Origin: Fimbriimonadaceae bacterium
Lineage (GTDB): Bacteria; Armatimonadota; UBA10988
Assembly (NCBI GenBank): GCA_020850355.1
Contig: JADZEX010000067.1
Coordinates: 1-64,000 of the forward strand
Length of the DNA stretch: 64,000 nucleotides
Direction of reading: 5' to 3'
A model generated the notes under the pieces. The model made no database searches and was not told the origin of the DNA. It was given only the letters and a program-made list of their open reading frames with translations. Positions 12,145 through 58,545 of this stretch are shown here, piece by piece (positions within the stretch are counted from its first letter, which is position 1; every line of letters starts with the position of its first letter). The translations under genes and the position numbers were made by a program.

Positions 12145-12210
12145 GGACGCTCCTGCGGCTGAATGCGCCAACCGCGGCGCGGTTCCTGCCGTGCGGTGGC
12201 GCCGCAAGAC

Positions 12211-12219
12211 TGGTATGAT
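12211..12219 (+). promoter_or_regulatory. Extended -10 promoter element for the B12-binding photosensor-like gene
   Basis: TGG followed by TATGAT (12214-12219) is an extended -10 element (TGnTATGAT) lying about 60 bases before the ATG at 12277, in the gap between two divergent genes. I see no good -35 box, as expected for extended -10 promoters. Confidence 0.45.
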
Positions 12220-12276
12220 GGCGTGGCGATTCGACAGGCACAGCGACAGGGGCGGGAAAGGGCCAGGCAGCGGGGC

Positions 12277-13350
12277 ATGGACGCTGACATTGGGCGGCAA
12301 GCGGCGACGCGGATCCGGTTGGACCAGTGGACCCTGGCGGTGCATGCCGTCGAGCGGCAGTACGCCGCGCAGCCGCAGTTGTGGGGCCGGTACGGCAGCA
12401 GTGGTCTGGAGGCCAGCCGCCGCGACACGGCGGCGACGCTGAACTACCTCGCGGCGGCGCTCGATGCGCTGGACCCAGGCGTCTTCCGCTGCTACGCCGT
12501 CTGGCTCCGTGACCTGTTGGTCAGCCGCGACCTGGGTGGCGAGCTGACCACGCACTTCGACGTCCTGCGCAATGTGCTGGGCGAACGCCTGCCCGCCCGC
12601 GAAGCGGCCCTGGCCGGGTACTACCTCTCCGAGGCGGCTGGCGCGCTGGCCGCTCCCACCGCACCACCCGAGCCGCCGGCGACCGGCCGCGATCCATGGG
12701 CCGAGCTACGTCAGAACTGGCTCGACCGGCTGCTGGCCGCGGACCGCCGGGGGGCTCTGGACCTGGTTCGGAGCGCCGTGCAGGGCGGCACCAGCGTGGC
12801 GGAGCTGTACCTGCAGGTGTTCCAGCCGGGCCTGCGCGAAGTTGGCCGGCTGTGGCATCTCAGCCGGGTCACGGTGGCCCACGAGCACTACGTCTCCGCG
12901 GCGACTGGCTGGCTGATGGGGCAGTTGCAGGCGCACGCCCCGACCGAGCCGGTCCACGGCCGGCGTTTCGTGGGGCTCTGTGTGGACGACGAGTTGCACG
13001 AACTGGGCCTGCGGATGGTCTGCGACTTCTTCGACTGGGCCGGCTGGGAGACGCACTTCCTGGGCGCCCGGACGCCGCGGCGCAGCGTGCCGCCGCTGGT
13101 CGAGGCGCTGCAGCCGGAGGTCGTCGGGATCTCCTGCACGCTGCCGATCCATGTCAGTTACTGCCGCGAGTTGGTGGCCGCCCTGCGCGCCAGCCCGGCC
13201 GGGCGGCAGGCCGTGGTGCTGGTCGGTGGGCAGGCCTTGCTGGCGCATCCTGGGCTGGCCCACCAGATCGGCGCCGACGCTGTCGGCAGCGATGCCGCCA
13301 GTGCCGTCAGCCAGGCCGAGCAACTGCTGGCAGCGCGCACCGCGGCTTGA
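12277..13350 (+). CDS. Cobalamin-binding protein with CarH-type light-sensing signature and no MerR domain
   Basis: The 357-residue protein has an all-helical N-terminal domain (about residues 1-125; DTAATLNYLAAALDALDPGV), a Pro/Ala linker, then a four-helix cobalamin cap and a Rossmann B12-binding domain. The cap carries Trp193-His194, nine residues between Trp193 and Glu203, then Glu203-His204. This is the W(x)9EH signature of the photoreceptor CarH, including the His that forms the light adduct. The B12 domain has Glu239-Leu-His241-Glu-Leu-Gly244, the ExHxxG variant used by CarH instead of DxHxxG. CarH normally has an N-terminal MerR DNA-binding domain; here it is replaced. Its output is therefore unknown, perhaps protein-protein contact. 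The ATG at 12277 is the only good start; divergent from the sulfatase operon. Confidence 0.8.
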   Translation: MDADIGRQAATRIRLDQWTLAVHAVERQYAAQPQLWGRYGSSGLEASRRDTAATLNYLAAALDALDPGVFRCYAVWLRDLLVSRDLGGELTTHFDVLRNVLGERLPAREAALAGYYLSEAAGALAAPTAPPEPPATGRDPWAELRQNWLDRLLAADRRGALDLVRSAVQGGTSVAELYLQVFQPGLREVGRLWHLSRVTVAHEHYVSAATGWLMGQLQAHAPTEPVHGRRFVGLCVDDELHELGLRMVCDFFDWAGWETHFLGARTPRRSVPPLVEALQPEVVGISCTLPIHVSYCRELVAALRASPAGRQAVVLVGGQALLAHPGLAHQIGADAVGSDAASAVSQAEQLLAARTAA

Positions 13351-51557: not shown

Positions 51558-52834
51558 TGCGCCGACGCTGGCCCGGCCTGGGCCTGCTGGCGCTGCTGCC
51601 GCTGCTGCCGCTGCGGGCGGCCGAGGTGCCCGAGGAGCTGTTCTTCGGTGTCGCCGGGCTGCAGCGGCGGATGCTGCTGACACCGCCGCAGCGCGTGCAG
51701 TCGGGGAGCCTGACCGTCGAGCTGCTGGAGGTCGACTCGTTGGTCACCGCCAGCGAGCCGCAGGTGCGCCTGCTGCTGCGCTGCCGCCAGGGCGGGCCCA
51801 GCGCCACGCCGTTGGTGGTGGTCGGCGAGGTCTACGCGCTGGACGAGGCCGGTCGCGAGCTGCCGGCGCGGAGCCGGCAGAGCTATCAGCAGGGCGAGGT
51901 CTCGTGGGTCGTGGTGACGCTGCCGGCGGCCCGGCGGCTGAGCCTGTTCAGCACCGCGCTGGGGCCAGCCCCGCGAGAGGAGCAGCGCACCGAGCGCCTG
52001 CCCTTGACGGCCGGCAGCAGCGCCGAGTGGCCGGCGGTCGGCCTGCGCGGCGAGCTGGCGCTGCTGCGACAGGAGCGCACGCGGCTGCCGCTGGCGAGCG
52101 AGGCGCCGCCGCTCTATCGCGGTCTCGATTCGACGGCCCTGCGCAGCGAGGATCCCCCGGAGCCGAGTGGCGATAGCAGCTTTGTGACGCTCCGCCTGGC
52201 GACCCTCGGGCCGCTCGAATCGCCGGTCGGCTGGCGGCTGGCCAACCTGCGGCTGACCGCCGGGCAGCAGGTGGTGCAGGACTGGCGCTACCGGCGCCTG
52301 TTGTGGCGGCCCGACTGGGGGGCCTGGCTGGGCGCCAAAGGGCGCGACTGGGAGAGCAGCGCCGAGGCCACGCCGCGGCGTGGGGTGCTGCTCGAGTCCC
52401 TGGTCGCGGGCGGGCCGGGCGAACTGGCGGGGCTACGGGTCGGCGACGTGCTGCTAACCGCGGCCGGCCTGCCCTTGCCGGATGCCTACGGACTGGGCGA
52501 ACTGGTGCGGACCCAGGCCCCCGGCGCCGTGCTGCGCTGCGAGGTCTGGCGCGACGGGCGACGGCTGCCGGTGACCATTCGCCTGGGCGGCCGAGAGCTG
52601 TGGCCGGATCTCGATGAGGTCGAGTTCAAGGAAGCCTGGACGCGGCTCGGCGGCGGGGAGCAGGCGGTGCTCAGCCTGTGGGACTGGCAGACCTGGGCGC
52701 CGCTGCCGGGCGACCTCGCCCCGACTGCGCTGGAGCTGGTCTTCAGCCGGCTGCAACCCGTCGCCCAGACGCAGTTTGTGCTCCGCAATATCCCGTTGCA
52801 GGCGCCTCAGTCGTCGTCGAAGAGCAACAACTGA
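51557..52834 (+). CDS. Secreted PDZ-domain protein linked to the ECF sigma factor
   Basis: The ATG overlaps the TGA of the preceding gene (TGATG). A signal peptide (LGLLALLPLLPLRAAEV) is followed by an uncharacterised beta-rich region to about residue 260 and a PDZ domain at about 270-345 (GVLLESLVAGGPGELAGLRV, GDVLLTAAGLPLPDAYGLGE). No protease domain (no HDS triad) is present. As third gene of a coupled sigma/anti-sigma operon it may sense envelope proteins or scaffold a protease that cleaves the anti-sigma. Its last 28 bases overlap the convergent DUF1848 gene. Confidence 0.8.
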   Translation: MRRRWPGLGLLALLPLLPLRAAEVPEELFFGVAGLQRRMLLTPPQRVQSGSLTVELLEVDSLVTASEPQVRLLLRCRQGGPSATPLVVVGEVYALDEAGRELPARSRQSYQQGEVSWVVVTLPAARRLSLFSTALGPAPREEQRTERLPLTAGSSAEWPAVGLRGELALLRQERTRLPLASEAPPLYRGLDSTALRSEDPPEPSGDSSFVTLRLATLGPLESPVGWRLANLRLTAGQQVVQDWRYRRLLWRPDWGAWLGAKGRDWESSAEATPRRGVLLESLVAGGPGELAGLRVGDVLLTAAGLPLPDAYGLGELVRTQAPGAVLRCEVWRDGRRLPVTIRLGGRELWPDLDEVEFKEAWTRLGGGEQAVLSLWDWQTWAPLPGDLAPTALELVFSRLQPVAQTQFVLRNIPLQAPQSSSKSNN

Positions 52835-53781
52835 TCGCGGTGGGGGTCCTCCTGGCCGGTGGCCAGGGCCAGGAGCTGCGGCCCGCTGAGCGCCGTCAGG
52901 CGGGCCGGGCGCCAGAGCAGCAGGTCGTCGGGGCGATGCTCCCGGCGGCGCTTCTCGGCCGCCGCCCGGCTGCGGTTGGCGTAGCAGTAGAGGCAGCCGG
53001 TGGGGCAGGTGTCGTAAACTCCGATGTCGACGCTGGCGAAGCAGCCACAGCGGTCGCGATGCGGCCGCCGCGGGAGCAGCAACGACTTCCCGGCGAGGCG
53101 TTCCAGGCGGGCCAAATCGATGCACGCGGCGTCGTCGAGTCCGGCACACAGCAGCTCGCGCTGCGCACAGACCGTCAGTCGCAGGCCCTCCTGCCGGGCG
53201 AGGTCCGCCAGTTGTAGCAGCAGTTCGCGTTTCGCCTCCAGCGCCGGGTCCTCGAAGGTGAACCCGTTGGCCAGCCCGCCGGCGCGCAGTTGGCTGCTGG
53301 TCTTGCGGTAGAAGTGCGTGAACGAGACCACCACCTCGTCGGCGATCCCTGACAGCGCGCCGGCCAGTCGGGCGAAGTTGGCGAGGTGCCAGGCCGGCGG
53401 GGTCAGCGACGTCACCAGCAAGGGGTCGTAGCGCCAGACGAGGGACCCGGCGCCGCAGCAGTCGACGACCTCGCGGCAGAGCGCGGTGGCCCGCTCCGGT
53501 GCGGCGCCGTGGCTCTCCAAGGCGCGTGGGTAGGCGGTCAGGCTGTACTGCACGACGCACGGCAGCCCGTCGGCTCGCAGCCGCTGCAAGACCGGCATGA
53601 AGGGCGCGCTGTTGCGGGTCCAGAAGACGAAACCCTGCACCTCCGGCGCGTGCAGCGCGACCCGCCGCAGGCCACTGTCGAAAGGGTTCGGCACGAGGCA
53701 GAACCCGGCCTGGTACCGCCGCTCGAACCAGCGGCTGTAGTACGCCGGAATGTCGGTGCGGTAGCTTGCCGAGACGATCAC
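52807..53781 (-). CDS. DUF1848 protein with Fe-S cluster-like cysteines
   Basis: I place the start at a GTG (53781) with GGAG six bases ahead, where the conserved N-terminus begins (VIVSASYRTDIPAYYSRWFE); a TTG 17 codons upstream is the alternative. Family phrases: FCLVPNPFDSGLRRVAL, VFWTRNSAPFMPVL, WRYDPLLVTS and the C-terminal cysteine cluster CGCFASVDIGVYDTCPTGCLYCYAN. This last cluster resembles an Fe-S-binding site; the family is related to radical-SAM-like enzymes, function unknown. The 324 residues are usual. It converges on the PDZ gene. Confidence 0.85.
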   Translation of the reverse strand: MIVSASYRTDIPAYYSRWFERRYQAGFCLVPNPFDSGLRRVALHAPEVQGFVFWTRNSAPFMPVLQRLRADGLPCVVQYSLTAYPRALESHGAAPERATALCREVVDCCGAGSLVWRYDPLLVTSLTPPAWHLANFARLAGALSGIADEVVVSFTHFYRKTSSQLRAGGLANGFTFEDPALEAKRELLLQLADLARQEGLRLTVCAQRELLCAGLDDAACIDLARLERLAGKSLLLPRRPHRDRCGCFASVDIGVYDTCPTGCLYCYANRSRAAAEKRRREHRPDDLLLWRPARLTALSGPQLLALATGQEDPHRDQLLLFDDD

Positions 53782-53905
53782 CCGCCGCTCCAACCGGCAG
53801 TTCGCGGTCCGCCTGCCCCGTCCTTTCGACAACCTCGACGCATCAGGGCTGGCTAATGAGTTGCAGCGAGGTGGGGCGCGGGCGCACTGTGCAGAGGAGG
53901 CGCGG

Positions 53906-55009
53906 ATGACACCACGGGAGCGATTCCTGGCCTGCTACCGGTTTCAGCCGGTGGACCACGTGCCGGATCGCGAGTTTGGCTACTGGGACGACACGCTGCG
54001 GGTCTGGTGGGACCAGGGCCTGCCGCGCTGGGTCACCCACAACGGCCTGGCTGACCATTACTTCAAGTTCGAGCCGCGGGGCGGCGTGCCGCTGAACGTC
54101 GGTCTCCAGCCGGGGTTCGCCACCGAGGTGATGGAGACGCACGAGCGCTACCAGATCATCCGCGACGGCAATGGCGTGCTGCTGAAGCAGTTCACCGACG
54201 GCTCGAGCTCCATCCCACACTACCTGGAGTTCCCGCTTCAGACGCGCGCCGACTGGGAAGAGAAGTTCCTGCCGCGGCTGCAACTGGACCGCCTCTATCC
54301 GAGCAACTGGGAGCAGCTCAAGACGCGTTGGATGGAGCGCGAGTACCCGCTCGGCATCTCCTGCGGCAGCCTCTACGGCTGGTTGCGCAACTGGATGGGC
54401 CTGGAGGGCATCAGCATCGCGATTGGGACCGACCCGGCCTGGGTCGATGCGATGATGGAGCACCTCTGCCAGTTGACCTGTGCCGTGATTGCCCGCGCCG
54501 CGGCGGAGGTGGAGCTCGACTTCGCGACGTTCTGGGAGGATATGTCGGCGAACCACGGTCCGCTGATCTCACCAGCGATGTTCCGACGCCACATGACGCC
54601 GCGGTTGAAGCGCATCACCGACCTGCTGCGCGACCACGGTGTCGGGATCTTCGTGGTCGACAGCGATGGCAACATCAACCAGATTGTGGAGCCCTGGCTG
54701 GAGGGAGGCGTGAACTGCATGTTCCCCCTCGAGATCAACGGGGACAGCGATCCGGTCAAGCTGCGGGCGCGGTACGGGCAGCGGGTTCTGCTGAAGGGTG
54801 GGGTGGACAAGAACGCCCTGCGCGCTGGCCGGGCGGCGATCGACGCGGAGTTGGAGCGCATCGCGCCGGTGGTGGCGACCGGCGGTTACGTGCCGACCGT
54901 CGACCACCGGGTCCCACCAGACGTGACCTACGAGGACTACCTGTACTATCTGCGGGCGAAGCGGGAGCGGTTTGGGATCCCCGACCCCGGATTCGCGGAC
55001 GCCCCGTGA
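53906..55009 (+). CDS. URO-D-fold protein of the corrinoid methyl-transfer cluster
   Basis: The ATG at 53906 follows GAGGAGG. The 367-residue product has MTPRERFLACYRFQPVDHVP, RGGVPLNVGLQPGF, GSLYGWLRNWMGLEGISIAI, FWEDMSANHGPLISPAMFRR, GIFVVDSDGNINQIVEPWLE and GGYVPTVDHRVPPDVTYEDY. In MtaA-type enzymes the zinc ligands are His-x-Cys-Gly and a later Cys; here the equivalents read DSDG and TVDH, so no zinc site. This non-zinc URO-D subfamily is abundant in polysaccharide-degrading and acetogenic-like bacteria with corrinoid genes, and may demethylate an unknown substrate. First gene of the cluster. Confidence 0.8.
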   Translation: MTPRERFLACYRFQPVDHVPDREFGYWDDTLRVWWDQGLPRWVTHNGLADHYFKFEPRGGVPLNVGLQPGFATEVMETHERYQIIRDGNGVLLKQFTDGSSSIPHYLEFPLQTRADWEEKFLPRLQLDRLYPSNWEQLKTRWMEREYPLGISCGSLYGWLRNWMGLEGISIAIGTDPAWVDAMMEHLCQLTCAVIARAAAEVELDFATFWEDMSANHGPLISPAMFRRHMTPRLKRITDLLRDHGVGIFVVDSDGNINQIVEPWLEGGVNCMFPLEINGDSDPVKLRARYGQRVLLKGGVDKNALRAGRAAIDAELERIAPVVATGGYVPTVDHRVPPDVTYEDYLYYLRAKRERFGIPDPGFADAP

Positions 55010-55144
55010 TCGGGACCAGAGCGGCCCGAAAAGTCCACAAGGAATCGTTGATTCGACAGGCAGGAAGGCAGCAGGCGCTGGGGAAACCCAGCGGTGCCGC
55101 GCGGGCGGAGGCCGGCGTGGTTTCGGATGTAAGGAGGCTTCTCG
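55010..55144 (+). promoter_or_regulatory. Structured leader between the URO-D gene and the corrinoid protein gene
   Basis: The 135-base spacer is unusually long inside the cluster and contains a clean hairpin: GCTGGG, GAAA, CCCAGC (55077-55092), a six-pair stem closed by a GNRA tetraloop. A second small hairpin reads GAATC, GTT, GATTC (55042-55054). It ends in AAGGAGG, the ribosome site of the next gene. I find no B12-box consensus, so I do not call a cobalamin riboswitch; a regulatory leader or processing site is possible. Confidence 0.35.
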
Positions 55145-55777
55145 ATGGCTGATTTCGCCGCAATGCAGGAAGCGGTGATCAAGGGCAACCTCGGCGAGGC
55201 GACGCGCCTCACGCAGGAGGCCTTGGACGGCGGAACCGCGCCGGCCGCAATCGTCAATGAGGGACTGATCCCTGGGATGCTGGTGGTCGGTGAGCGCTTC
55301 AAGAACAACGAGTACTATGTTCCGGAAGTGCTGATCGCCGCGCGCGCCATGAAAGGCGCGATGGCGCTGGTGCAGCCGCATCTCAAGGAAGGCGACATCG
55401 AGCCGCTCGGCACGGTCGCCATCGGCACGGTGCAGGGCGACTTGCATGACATCGGCAAGAACCTCGTGGCGATGATGCTCGAGGGCGCCGGCTACAAGAT
55501 CGTCGACCTCGGCGTGGACGTCTCGCCGGAGAAGTTCATCGACGCCGTGCAGTCGCAGGGAGTCACGGTGATCGCGCTGTCGGCGCTGCTGACGACCACC
55601 ATGCCCTCCATCGGCAAGACCATCGAGGCGCTCAACGCCGCGGGTCTGCGCGAGAAGGTCACGGTGATCATCGGCGGTGCCCCGGTCACCGAGGCGTATC
55701 GTAAGGAAGTCGGCGCCGACGCCTACGCTCCCGACGCGGGGAGCGCGGTCGAAGCGCTGAAGGGCCTGGCCGCCTAG
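55145..55777 (+). CDS. Corrinoid carrier protein (MtaC/MttC/MtbC type)
   Basis: The protein of 210 residues has the two expected parts: a helical cap (EAVIKGNLGEATRLTQEALD, IVNEGLIPGMLVVGERFKNN, YYVPEVLIAARAMKGAM) and a B12-binding Rossmann domain with GTVQGDLHDIGKNLVAMML, where Asp99-x-His101-x-x-Gly104 is the DxHxxG motif whose His coordinates cobalt. VIALSALLTTTMPSIGKTIE and IIGGAPVTEAYRKEVGADAY complete it. It carries a methyl group on cobalt between methyltransferases. Length and order are typical of stand-alone carriers in methanol, methylamine and O-demethylase systems. AAGGAGG lies nine bases before the ATG. Confidence 0.95.
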   Translation: MADFAAMQEAVIKGNLGEATRLTQEALDGGTAPAAIVNEGLIPGMLVVGERFKNNEYYVPEVLIAARAMKGAMALVQPHLKEGDIEPLGTVAIGTVQGDLHDIGKNLVAMMLEGAGYKIVDLGVDVSPEKFIDAVQSQGVTVIALSALLTTTMPSIGKTIEALNAAGLREKVTVIIGGAPVTEAYRKEVGADAYAPDAGSAVEALKGLAA

Positions 55778-55786
55778 TTGCGCGCT

Positions 55787-55836
55787 AGCCCCGCGGGTCG
55801 CGCTCTGCTGCGGCGACGGGCGCGGTCCGCGGGGCT
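55787..55836 (+). other. Long inverted repeat between corrinoid protein and MtaA-like genes
   Basis: AGCCCCGCGG (55787-55796) and CCGCGGGGCT (55827-55836) are exact reverse complements around a 30-base loop that itself can pair (GTCGC...GCGAC). It begins ten bases after the corrinoid protein stop. No T-run follows; it could be an intercistronic stabiliser or attenuator that makes the carrier more abundant than the enzymes. Confidence 0.5.
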
Positions 55837-55929
55837 CTCCACTGGTCGTGTCGGCTCGCTGCCGGTCTACCGGCGGCGACGGTTGGTTGGTGCCTGCTGG
55901 TCCACCGAGTCCTAAGGTTGGAGGTCCCG

Positions 55930-57291
55930 ATGGCCGTCTCTCCCCGTGAACTGCTGCACGCTGCGCTGCACCGGCAACCCACCGCGCGCACGCCCTGGGT
56001 GCCGTACGTCGGCTGCCACGGCGGGCGGCTGATTGGGCGGAGCGCCGAGGAGTATCTGCGCAGCGCCGAGTTGATCGCTTACGGGGTCGCCACCGCGGCA
56101 CAGCGCTACCGCGCCGATGGCGTGCCGGTCGTCTTCGACCTGCAGATCGAGGCCGAGGCGCTGGGCTGCGAACTCGCCTGGTCGGAGGAGAATCCACCGG
56201 CGGTGATCTCGCACCCGCTGGCCCGCGGTACCCAGCTCGCGGATCTGGCGGTGCCCACCGCGGAGTCCGGTCGGCTGCCGATCGTGCTCGACGCGATCCG
56301 CCAGGCCCGCCGGCAGGTCGGTGACGAGGTCAGCCTGTTCGGCCTGATCACCGGCCCGTTCACCCTCGCCCTGCACCTCCTGGGGCCTGACATCTTCATG
56401 CAGATGTTCGACCAGCCGGAGCAGATTCAGGCGTTGATGCAGTTCACTCAGGAAGTCGGCCGGGCCGTCGCGGCGCTCTACATCGAGGCCGGCTGCGATG
56501 TCATCGCGGTGGTTGACCCGATGACCAGCCAGATCTCGCCGGGCCACTTCGAGGAGTTCGTGACCGCGCCAGCGCGCGCCATCTTCGCCGATCTGCGGCA
56601 GCGTGGCGTGCCCGGCTGCTTCTTCGTCTGCGGCGACGCGCAGCGCAACCTCGGCAAGATGGCCGAGTGCGGCCCGGAGGCGGTGTTTGTCGACGAGCAG
56701 ATCGATCTCGTGGCGATGGGCGAGATCGCCCGCCAGCACAACGTCGCCTTCGGCGGCAACATCCCGCTGACCACCGTGATGCTGTTCGGCAGCCAGGACG
56801 ACAACCGGCGCGCGGCGCGGGCCTGTCTCGACCAGGGTGGGGCGACCGGGTTCATCTTGGCGCCCGGCTGCGACATCCCCTACGCCGTGCCGCCCGAGAA
56901 CCTCGCGGCGATTGCCGAGGTCGTGCATGGCGAACACTCTGGCGTCGTGGCGGCCGGGGCCAGCACAGCGGTTGAGGTCGAGCTGCCCGACTACGCGACG
57001 CTCGGCCACGTGCAGGTCGACATCTTCACCCTCGACTCGGCGGCCTGCGCGCCGTGTCAGTACATGGTCGCGGCGGTCGAGAAGATCCTGCCGGAGTTCG
57101 CTGACAAGGTGCAGTGGAACGAGCTGAAGCTGAAGAGCCCCGAGACCGTCGCGCTGATGGGTGCGGTCGGGGTGACCTCGATTCCGTCGATTGCCATCGA
57201 CGGCGAGGTGGCTTTCAGCAGCCTGATTCCCGAACTCCGCGTGCTCCGCGACGCGGTGCGTGATAAGCTGTCGGCGAAGAGTCTGATCTAG
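55930..57291 (+). CDS. MtaA/MtbA-like URO-D methyltransferase fused to a thioredoxin-like CxxC domain
   Basis: ATG 55930 has GGAGG upstream. Residues 1-345 match MtaA/MtbA (methylcorrinoid:coenzyme M type) enzymes: DGVPVVFDLQIEAEALGCEL, LFGLITGPFTLALHLLG, DVIAVVDPMTSQISPGHFEE, and GFILAPGCDIPYAVPPENLA with the conserved zinc Cys. The HxCG zinc motif reads FVCG: Phe232 replaces the His, Cys234 is kept. Residues 365-450 form a thioredoxin-like domain (VQVDIFTLDSAACAPCQYMV with Cys373-Ala-Pro-Cys376, GVTSIPSIAIDGEV with a cis-Pro). A fused redox domain is unusual for MtaA proteins of about 340 residues. The methyl acceptor is unlikely to be coenzyme M in a bacterium. Confidence 0.85.
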   Translation: MAVSPRELLHAALHRQPTARTPWVPYVGCHGGRLIGRSAEEYLRSAELIAYGVATAAQRYRADGVPVVFDLQIEAEALGCELAWSEENPPAVISHPLARGTQLADLAVPTAESGRLPIVLDAIRQARRQVGDEVSLFGLITGPFTLALHLLGPDIFMQMFDQPEQIQALMQFTQEVGRAVAALYIEAGCDVIAVVDPMTSQISPGHFEEFVTAPARAIFADLRQRGVPGCFFVCGDAQRNLGKMAECGPEAVFVDEQIDLVAMGEIARQHNVAFGGNIPLTTVMLFGSQDDNRRAARACLDQGGATGFILAPGCDIPYAVPPENLAAIAEVVHGEHSGVVAAGASTAVEVELPDYATLGHVQVDIFTLDSAACAPCQYMVAAVEKILPEFADKVQWNELKLKSPETVALMGAVGVTSIPSIAIDGEVAFSSLIPELRVLRDAVRDKLSAKSLI

Positions 57292-57304
57292 CGGAGCCGA
57301 CAGG

Positions 57305-58180
57305 ATGCGGATCGATTTGCGGGAGCGCCTGGCCAGCGGCCGGGCGTTGGTCGTGGACGGGGCGACGGGCACGCAGCTCCAGGCGCGGGGGCTGCCCGCC
57401 GGGGCCTGCAGCGAGGGCTGGAATCTGGACCATCCCGACGCGGTCCGCGCGGTCGCTGCGGCCTACGCGGCGGCTGGCAGCGATCTGGTCTACAGCAACA
57501 GCTTCGGCGGCAACCCCTGGCGGTTGGCGCATCACGGGCTGGAGGGAGAGCTGGCGGCCCTCAACCGGCGGGCGGCCGAGCTGGCCCGCGAAGGCGTCGG
57601 CGACGACGTCTATGTCGCTGGCAGCATGGGCCCGACCGGCGACTTCCTGGCCCCCCTCGGCCTGCTGGAACCAGCGGCGGTGGAAGCGGCCTACGGCCAG
57701 CAGGCCGCCGCGCTGGTGGCCGGTGGTGCCGACGCCATCGTCTGCGAGACCTTCGCCGCCCTCGACGAACTGAGCGCCGCGGTGCGCGGTGCGCGGGCCG
57801 CCGTGGAGGTGCCGATCGTCGCGTCACTGACTTACGGTCGCGGTGGCCGGACGATGATGGGGGTCACCGCGACCGACGCCGTGCTGGCGCTGGTCGAGGC
57901 TGGGGCCGAGGTGATCGGTCTCAACTGCGGCGACGACCTGGAGGTCGTGCCGCTGGTGCTCGCCGCCTACCGTGCCACGGTGCCGGAGCTGCCGGTGCTG
58001 ATCAAGCCGAACGCCGGGATGCCGGCCATCGTCGCTGGGACGCCGGTCTGGCCGGTCGCGCCGGCGGAGTTCGGGCAGCTCGCGGCGGGTTGGCGCGCCG
58101 CGGGGGCCACGCTGCTAGGCGGCTGCTGCGGCACCAGCCCGGAGCATCTGGCGGCCGTCGCGGCCGCCGTGCGCCGCTAG
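57305..58180 (+). CDS. Zinc-dependent homocysteine S-methyltransferase
   Basis: The 291-residue protein equals the N-terminal module of MetH/BHMT/MmuM: ALVVDGATGTQLQARGL, DLVYSNSFGGNPWRLAHHGL, AGSMGPTGDFLAPLGLLEPA, ADAIVCETFAALDEL, and the three zinc Cys in VIGLNCGDD and LLGGCCGTSPEH. It would methylate homocysteine to methionine. It lacks the folate-, B12- and AdoMet-binding parts of MetH, so the methyl donor is probably the corrinoid protein encoded 1.5 kb upstream. Start follows the previous stop by 13 bases. Confidence 0.9.
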   Translation: MRIDLRERLASGRALVVDGATGTQLQARGLPAGACSEGWNLDHPDAVRAVAAAYAAAGSDLVYSNSFGGNPWRLAHHGLEGELAALNRRAAELAREGVGDDVYVAGSMGPTGDFLAPLGLLEPAAVEAAYGQQAAALVAGGADAIVCETFAALDELSAAVRGARAAVEVPIVASLTYGRGGRTMMGVTATDAVLALVEAGAEVIGLNCGDDLEVVPLVLAAYRATVPELPVLIKPNAGMPAIVAGTPVWPVAPAEFGQLAAGWRAAGATLLGGCCGTSPEHLAAVAAAVRR

Positions 58181-58251: not shown

Positions 58252-58545
58252 ATGGTTGAGCATCTGGTCTTGTTCAAGCTCCACAACGACGCCACCCCGG
58301 CCCAGGTCGAGGCGATGCTGCAGGCGCTGCGGGCGCTGCCGACGCAGATCGACACCATCCGCGAGCTGAGCTGCGGCCACAACTTCTGTGACCGCAGCAA
58401 CGGCCACCAGGTTGGGCTGCGCGTGTTGTTCGACGACCGCGCCGGCCTGGAGGTCTACGCACCGCATCCGGCCCACACCGGCTGCGTGGCGACCTGCATC
58501 AAGCCGATCCTGGAGCAGGTCACGGTCGTCGACTACGAGTGCTGA
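58252..58545 (+). CDS. Dabb (stress-responsive alpha/beta barrel) domain protein
   Basis: The 97 residues show the Dabb pattern: MVEHLVLFKLHNDATPAQVE, LRALPTQIDTIRELSCGHNF, FDDRAGLEVYAPHPAHTGCV, ILEQVTVVDYEC. These small dimeric ferredoxin-like proteins occur in many pathways; the role here is unknown. The spacing (72 bases from the methyl-transfer cluster, with a hairpin between) leaves open whether it is co-transcribed. It converges on pheA nine bases away. Confidence 0.85.
   Translation: MVEHLVLFKLHNDATPAQVEAMLQALRALPTQIDTIRELSCGHNFCDRSNGHQVGLRVLFDDRAGLEVYAPHPAHTGCVATCIKPILEQVTVVDYEC

Follow-up and report, generated by a model that had tools for sequence, protein, structure and literature searches.

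Four consecutive genes at positions 53906-58180 of an Armatimonadota genome, all on the + strand, appear to encode a corrinoid methyl-transfer module. They lie in the window, i.e. the whole stretch of 64 000 nucleotides that was analysed. In the preferred reading, which is given a probability of about 0.58, a URO-D-fold protein (UROD1) demethylates a non-thiol donor, a stand-alone corrinoid protein (CorrP) carries the methyl group and a homocysteine S-methyltransferase (PF02574) passes it to homocysteine. An earlier note, made from the letters of the DNA, had listed four genes in a row and proposed such a module. All four were recovered on one strand using Pfam and NCBIfam models, and the proposal is supported by domains, motifs, recurrent neighbourhood and co-occurrence. 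The gene content, motifs, fold, neighbourhoods and co-occurrence were observed directly.

Genes and proteins of the cluster

The four genes are separated by 135, 152 and 13 bp, in that order, and the first three (UROD1, CorrP and MtaA-Trx) are preceded by AGGAGG- or GGAGG-type sites. UROD1 (53906..55009, + strand) is a divergent URO-D-fold protein (PF01208, 1.4e-9), and its putative role as a methyl donor:corrinoid methyltransferase (MT1) is proposed from this match, the AF2 fold, the motifs and the adjacency to CorrP. The AF2 model (pLDDT 94.4) forms a URO-D barrel that is roughly equidistant from UroD (Z 22.5, 3.8 Å) and MtaA (Z 20.1, 4.2 Å). Identity with HemE was rejected, as the NCBIfam hemE model gives no match. 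Residues W210-E211-D212, D252-x-D254-G255 (D-[CS]-D-G) and D333-H334 are invariant in 22 UROD1 relatives. The direct profile link between UROD1 and MtaA-Trx is weak (hhalign probability 27%); the pockets were compared in the wider superfamily alignment. In this alignment, which is approximate, D-[CS]-D-G of UROD1 falls on the His-x-Cys of MtaA and D-H on the second Cys. The term 'non-zinc', used for this protein in the earlier note, thus needs refinement: D-[CS]-D and D-H occupy the MtaA zinc positions. According to PMC10418091, S-methyltransferases of the URO-D superfamily are recognised by His-Cys-Cys and O-methyltransferases by a substitution with carboxylates. Because carboxylates replace His-Cys-Cys in UROD1, the protein reads as a non-thiol enzyme under this rule and, judged from its zinc-site residues, looks like a non-thiol methyltransferase. 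No NCBIfam model of the MtvB/OdmB/MtoB clade matched the cluster proteins. CdmB and the O-demethylases are absent from the PDB matches, which does not count against kinship.

CorrP (55145..55777, + strand) matches PF02607 (4e-22) and PF02310 (2.3e-27). Its motif is complete, DLHDIG (residue 99) -41- SAL -28- GG (residue 177), and is of the base-off/His-on type, in agreement with the stand-alone corrinoid (B12) carrier with DxHxxG described earlier. The nearest NCBIfam model is corrin_MtgC_2, with a score under the cut-off of that model.

MtaA-Trx (55930..57291, + strand; PF01208, 4.6e-66) combines an MtaA-like URO-D methyltransferase with a C-terminal thioredoxin-like domain. Residues 1-337 carry the MtaA fold and the AF2 model is closest to MtaA 4ay8 (Z 41.9, 2.0 Å over 327 residues). 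The thioredoxin-like domain (57010..57288, + strand, residues ~361-453) matches Thioredoxin_3 (6.6e-5) and NF047660 (1.7e-10) and contains an invariant CAPC (373-376). The zinc His of MtaA is replaced by Phe in every member, and both zinc Cys are retained (F-x-C...C); a second MtaA-like protein of the same genome (C38:170381) has the canonical HICG...C. The nearest NCBIfam model, mtaA_cmuA, gives 180 bits, and its curated cut-off of 235.4 is not reached. Membership of the MtaA/MtbA family (SCMT) was rejected on the zinc motif and this cut-off, although the fold matches. The protein is not a true HemE (92.6 bits versus a hemE cut-off of 303). MtaA-Trx is probably a second methyltransferase acting on CorrP, with a thiol or thioether as its likely partner, whether as loader or unloader: the fusion could load CorrP from a methyl-thiol or unload it to a thiol.

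The fourth gene (57305..58180, + strand) adjoins MtaA-Trx at 13 bp and encodes the proposed acceptor enzyme (MT2). The PF02574 match (2.1e-63) and the intact zinc triad C208/C274/C275 agree with the zinc homocysteine methyltransferase of the earlier note. A small Dabb gene (stress-responsive A/B barrel; PF07876, 2.1e-25) follows on the same strand (58252..58545) and is possibly the last gene of the cluster transcript. This gene and the thioredoxin-like domain of MtaA-Trx had been overlooked previously.

Neighbourhoods, co-occurrence and genome inventory

Outside the window, the complete set of CorrP, UROD1, MtaA-Trx and PF02574 was found only in genomes G184 and G185, which belong to another family. 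G002, of the same family as the source, retains UROD1, CorrP and MtaA-Trx up to the contig end; G001 retains CorrP and MtaA-Trx. Joint conservation of the four genes, suggested earlier as a check, is partial: the whole set is rare, and the UROD1-CorrP and UROD1-PF02574 pairs are more widespread. UROD1 orthologues extend into Latescibacterota, Poribacteria, Chloroflexota, Aerophobetes, Bacillota, Omnitrophota and further groups, a phylum count that is approximate because assignments come from the titles of MAG records and contigs may be misbinned.

In a set of 80 UROD1 loci, CorrP was found nearby in 15 (0.2 expected), RACo in nine, DUF1638 in seven, PF02574 in four (0.59 expected, P 0.003; only modest evidence alone) and PF00809 with MTHFR in three. 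PF02574 and PF00809 never occur together at any of these loci. UROD1 lies beside PF02574 in the window, in G184/G185 and G006, and in Latescibacterota (L183), Bacillota (L214 and L224) and Aerophobetes (L187); it lies beside PF00809 and MTHFR at L178/L040, L198/L046 and L182. At L239/L240 a CmuA-like fusion adjoins UROD1. In nine families, with 28 genomes between them, CorrP is located at most 12 kb from the best UROD1-class gene. The UROD1-CorrP neighbourhood exceeds chance, since related gene pairs adjoin in many genomes. Most Armatimonadota UROD1 orthologues sit at a distance from CorrP. In many families a CorrP-RACo pair is embedded in a block resembling coaBC, metK, priA, def and fmt (names taken from sequence starts), distant from any single URO-D gene, as expected of a shared carrier. 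In family f21, MtaA-Trx occurs apart from CorrP and without PF02574, with a CobW GTPase alongside in nine loci and often with a divergent AraC-type regulator containing a PocR-like domain.

Among 291 Armatimonadota genomes, the UROD1 class was present in 155 and RACo in 153, and 147 had a strong stand-alone CorrP. All three were found together in 145 genomes and none of them in 135; the remaining 11 were mixed. In family f14 all three are present in the same 12 of 102 genomes and the other 90 have none; the agreement is likewise perfect in the other varying families, f9 (7/17 genomes) and f23 (1/7). Kinship is not accounted for in the hypergeometric and rank P values, and the agreement within mixed families is the better argument. 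Co-occurrence could in part come from a common anaerobic lifestyle. URO-D copy number, determined in 61 genomes, is 0-2 without RACo and ranges from 3 to at least 28 with RACo, with no overlap.

The source genome (6.67 Mb, 117 contigs, 95% complete) contains 45 URO-D matches versus one stand-alone carrier and one RACo. The latter (PF14574, C28:49699) lies outside the cluster, on contig 28, and answers the suggestion of the earlier note to look for a RamA/RACo-type reactivase elsewhere in the genome. The three PF02607 proteins are MetH, CorrP and a CarH-like protein (12196-13350). Three PF02574 proteins were found, MetH among them. The PF00809 search of the source genome returned only DHPS, MetH and one sub-threshold match, with no separate MtgD-type pterin module; relatives G055 and G015 carry a PF00809 module apart from MetH. 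No CdhC/acetyl-CoA synthase was found in eight genomes tested, the source genome included, and an acetogenic fate of the methyl group was rejected on this basis. No scored URO-D protein of the source genome scores like a true HemE (1e-120 or stronger in relatives that have HemE). Most of the paralogues are dispersed, with no CorrP nearby, and the neighbours of the ~40 other URO-D genes did not point to any shared substrate.

Proposed methyl transfer and alternative readings

In the proposed mechanism, UROD1, whose pocket is rich in carboxylates where MtaA has His-Cys-Cys, would move a methyl group from an O- or N-methyl donor to Co(I) of CorrP. Methyl-CorrP would then methylate homocysteine via the PF02574 enzyme, giving methionine. 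Oxidised CorrP would be re-reduced by RACo, encoded on the other contig, and the CAPC domain of MtaA-Trx may serve thiol redox. CorrP would probably also act as a common hub for many of the ~44 remaining URO-D proteins. We infer each reaction, its direction, the donor and this hub role.

Two suggestions of the earlier note gain support: a URO-D-fold protein that demethylates the substrate, now a likely donor methyltransferase, and homocysteine as the likely acceptor (PF02574 with its zinc triad). Its argument that a URO-D protein stands in for a missing MtvB-type enzyme does not hold, as MtvB, OdmB, VdmB, MtoB and CdmB themselves belong to the URO-D superfamily (PMC13222342). Because URO-D-fold donor enzymes are an established kind, the puzzle of the missing substrate enzyme is removed. 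MtaB and MttB were not found among the cluster genes. As for a methylated sugar or aromatic ether as the donor, no finding here points that way. Besides the rarity of the whole set, the distance of most UROD1 orthologues from CorrP and a possibly common anaerobic lifestyle, two further points count against the preferred reading. A full MetH is encoded in the source genome, so that methionine synthesis can do without the cluster, and PF02574 enzymes can use donors other than methyl-CorrP, e.g. betaine or S-methylmethionine.

It is unlikely, though worth considering, that the cluster recycles methyl-sulfur or methyl-selenium compounds in the manner of type 1 mlp clusters. MtaA-Trx would then demethylate a methyl-thiol or -selenol onto CorrP, the PF02574 enzyme would form methionine and UROD1 would be accessory. 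The close structural match of MtaA-Trx to MtaA (Z 41.9), its two zinc Cys and its CAPC domain fit such a role, and mlp clusters, which combine MtaA-like proteins, a corrinoid protein and a reactivase, have been proposed to supply methionine (PMC10418091). However, type 1 requires Mlp2 and Mlp3 with His-Cys-Cys, and the cluster lacks a reactivase and has a single MtaA-like protein, in which the site reads Phe-Cys-Cys; moreover, it is UROD1, and not MtaA-Trx, whose presence follows that of CorrP across 155 genomes.

Another reading, improbable in our judgement, is that of loose neighbours: UROD1, CorrP and MtaA-Trx would use another acceptor (e.g. a small thiol via MtaA-Trx), and the PF02574 protein would be an ordinary betaine or S-methylmethionine enzyme. 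In methanogens MtaA acts on the acceptor side and methylates a thiol, MtaA-Trx of family f21 is followed by the CobW GTPase with no PF02574, and the PF02574 domain alone leaves the donor unfixed. Against this stand the 13 bp spacing, the identical set in G184/G185, the proximity of UROD1 and PF02574 in three further phyla and the alternation of PF02574 with a PF00809 acceptor. That UROD1 and most URO-D paralogues are lyases or decarboxylases, merely present in anaerobes with CorrP and RACo, would suit the scattering of most paralogues away from CorrP and a UROD1 fold that matches true UroD as well as MtaA (Z 22.5 versus 20.1), but is very improbable given the near-perfect three-way co-occurrence (mixed families included), the position of CorrP directly beside UROD1 in many families and phyla and the lack of any overlap in URO-D copy number between genomes with and without RACo.

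With somewhat less than an even chance, the methyl-transfer reading extends further: Armatimonadota and other little-studied phyla would possess dozens of URO-D-fold demethylases with differing substrates, served by one carrier and one RACo, and this hub, genome-wide in scale, would harvest methyl groups and deliver them to homocysteine or folate. UROD1 would be one of these demethylases, with the MtaA-thioredoxin fusion as a novel kind of partner. Through the single carrier and reactivase, the ~45 URO-D genes found here, and up to dozens in relatives, gain one testable function. If true, B12 enzymes of anaerobic bacteria would demethylate many methylated compounds, on a much broader scale than expected from the few substrates known so far, and the URO-D and MttB donor families would have become linked, each on its own, to the same exits towards homocysteine and folate.

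Comparison with known systems

A search of openly accessible papers gave no description of the cluster or of the URO-D expansion in Armatimonadota. The cluster shares with corrinoid MT1/MT2 systems a corrinoid protein with the base-off/His-on motif and a RACo in the genome. With type 1 mlp clusters it has in common URO-D-superfamily proteins, a corrinoid protein, a reactivase and a proposed methionine link. Mlp proteins, however, are MtaA-like with His-Cys-Cys. The UROD1 class is rich in carboxylates and stands much further off, Phe-Cys-Cys is found in MtaA-Trx, and RACo lies outside the cluster. Assignment to type 1 mlp was rejected: the cluster has no His-Cys-Cys site, no Mlp2 and Mlp3 pair and no reactivase. 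MtaA-Trx resembles the MtaA/MtbA methylcobamide:coenzyme M methyltransferases in its fold and two zinc Cys, and differs in the Phe at the zinc His position, the C-terminal thioredoxin domain and a score below the mtaA_cmuA cut-off. As in CmuA (chloromethane), an MtaA-like domain would work with a corrinoid domain, but in the window these are encoded by separate genes and the MtaA-like protein is fused to thioredoxin instead.

URO-D-fold O-demethylases and haloalkane demethylases act on methoxy-aromatics or haloalkanes and use an H4F/H4MPT-type MT2 (PMC13222342, PMC8630106). By description, MtvB, OdmB, VdmB, MtoB and CdmB resemble the cluster in having a URO-D-superfamily MT1, in some cases lacking zinc, and a separate corrinoid protein; they differ in their H4F/H4MPT-type MT2, in place of which the cluster would use PF02574.

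The closest worked example, by analogy, is MtgBCDE of Ruegeria pomeroyi, in which donor enzymes share the corrinoid protein MtgC with modules for homocysteine (PF02574) and folate (PF00809); as many as seven donor paralogues have been noted (PMC12478193). As in this split methionine synthase/demethylase, a stand-alone carrier would be common to a donor methyltransferase and a PF02574 module, here one with the zinc Cys triad encoded in the same cluster as the corrinoid protein. The PF00809 and MetF-type module (in relatives) and the several donor paralogues per carrier are further likenesses. The Ruegeria donor enzyme belongs to PF06253 (MttB family), and no such MtgB-type protein is found among the cluster proteins, where the donor enzyme would have the URO-D fold (PF01208). 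The source genome also differs in having no above-cut-off PF00809 partner beyond MetH and DHPS, an additional MtaA-Trx, and MetH as well. URO-D-fold donor enzymes and the MtgBCDE-type homocysteine exit are both known already; the cluster would be a variant with URO-D donors on that exit.

Neighbours of the proposed corrinoid methyl-transfer genes

Genes encoding DUF1638 proteins (PF07796) were repeatedly found next to those of UROD1 (the divergent URO-D-fold protein), CorrP (the stand-alone corrinoid carrier) and RACo (the corrinoid reactivase), at L046, L058, L164, L176, L182, L183, L195, L198, L239, L240 and L242. This recurrent proximity suggests that DUF1638 is a so far unrecognised component of corrinoid methyl transfer. 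Many Armatimonadota families have CorrP and RACo within a conserved gene block whose other members, judged by sequence, are coaBC-, metK-, priA-, def- and fmt-like (L157, L160, L166, L173 and further CorrP loci).

Other genes in the window and its genome

The UROD1 gene is divergently oriented from a DUF1848 gene (PF08902; window 52807-53793, minus strand), whose product contains the cysteine motif CPTGCLYCYA. This arrangement is also kept in a genome of the same family (G002, L039). A second B12-binding protein (window 12196-13350, plus strand; PF02607 and PF02310) has a CarH-like C-terminal part, and its N-terminal 170 residues or so received no domain assignment; the protein may be a B12-dependent regulator. 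Elsewhere in this genome, a second MtaA-like URO-D protein (L079:8373-9383, i.e. C38:170381) carries the canonical zinc motif HICG...C, and its gene is immediately preceded by another URO-D gene.

MtaA-Trx loci and fusion proteins

In family f21 of the Armatimonadota, the gene of MtaA-Trx (MtaA-like, with a C-terminal thioredoxin-like domain; L139-L148) is followed by a CobW-type GTPase gene in nine loci, and metal loading of the MtaA-like domain by this GTPase is possible. Five of these loci contain a divergent AraC-type regulator; the one tested has a PocR-like domain. Two kinds of fusion were encoded close to UROD1. A Latescibacterota MAG has PF00809-MTHFR-DUF5981 (L182:6296-8827), and L239 has a CmuA-like fusion of MtaA with an MtaC-type corrinoid protein (L239:10436-12286), similar to one at L240.
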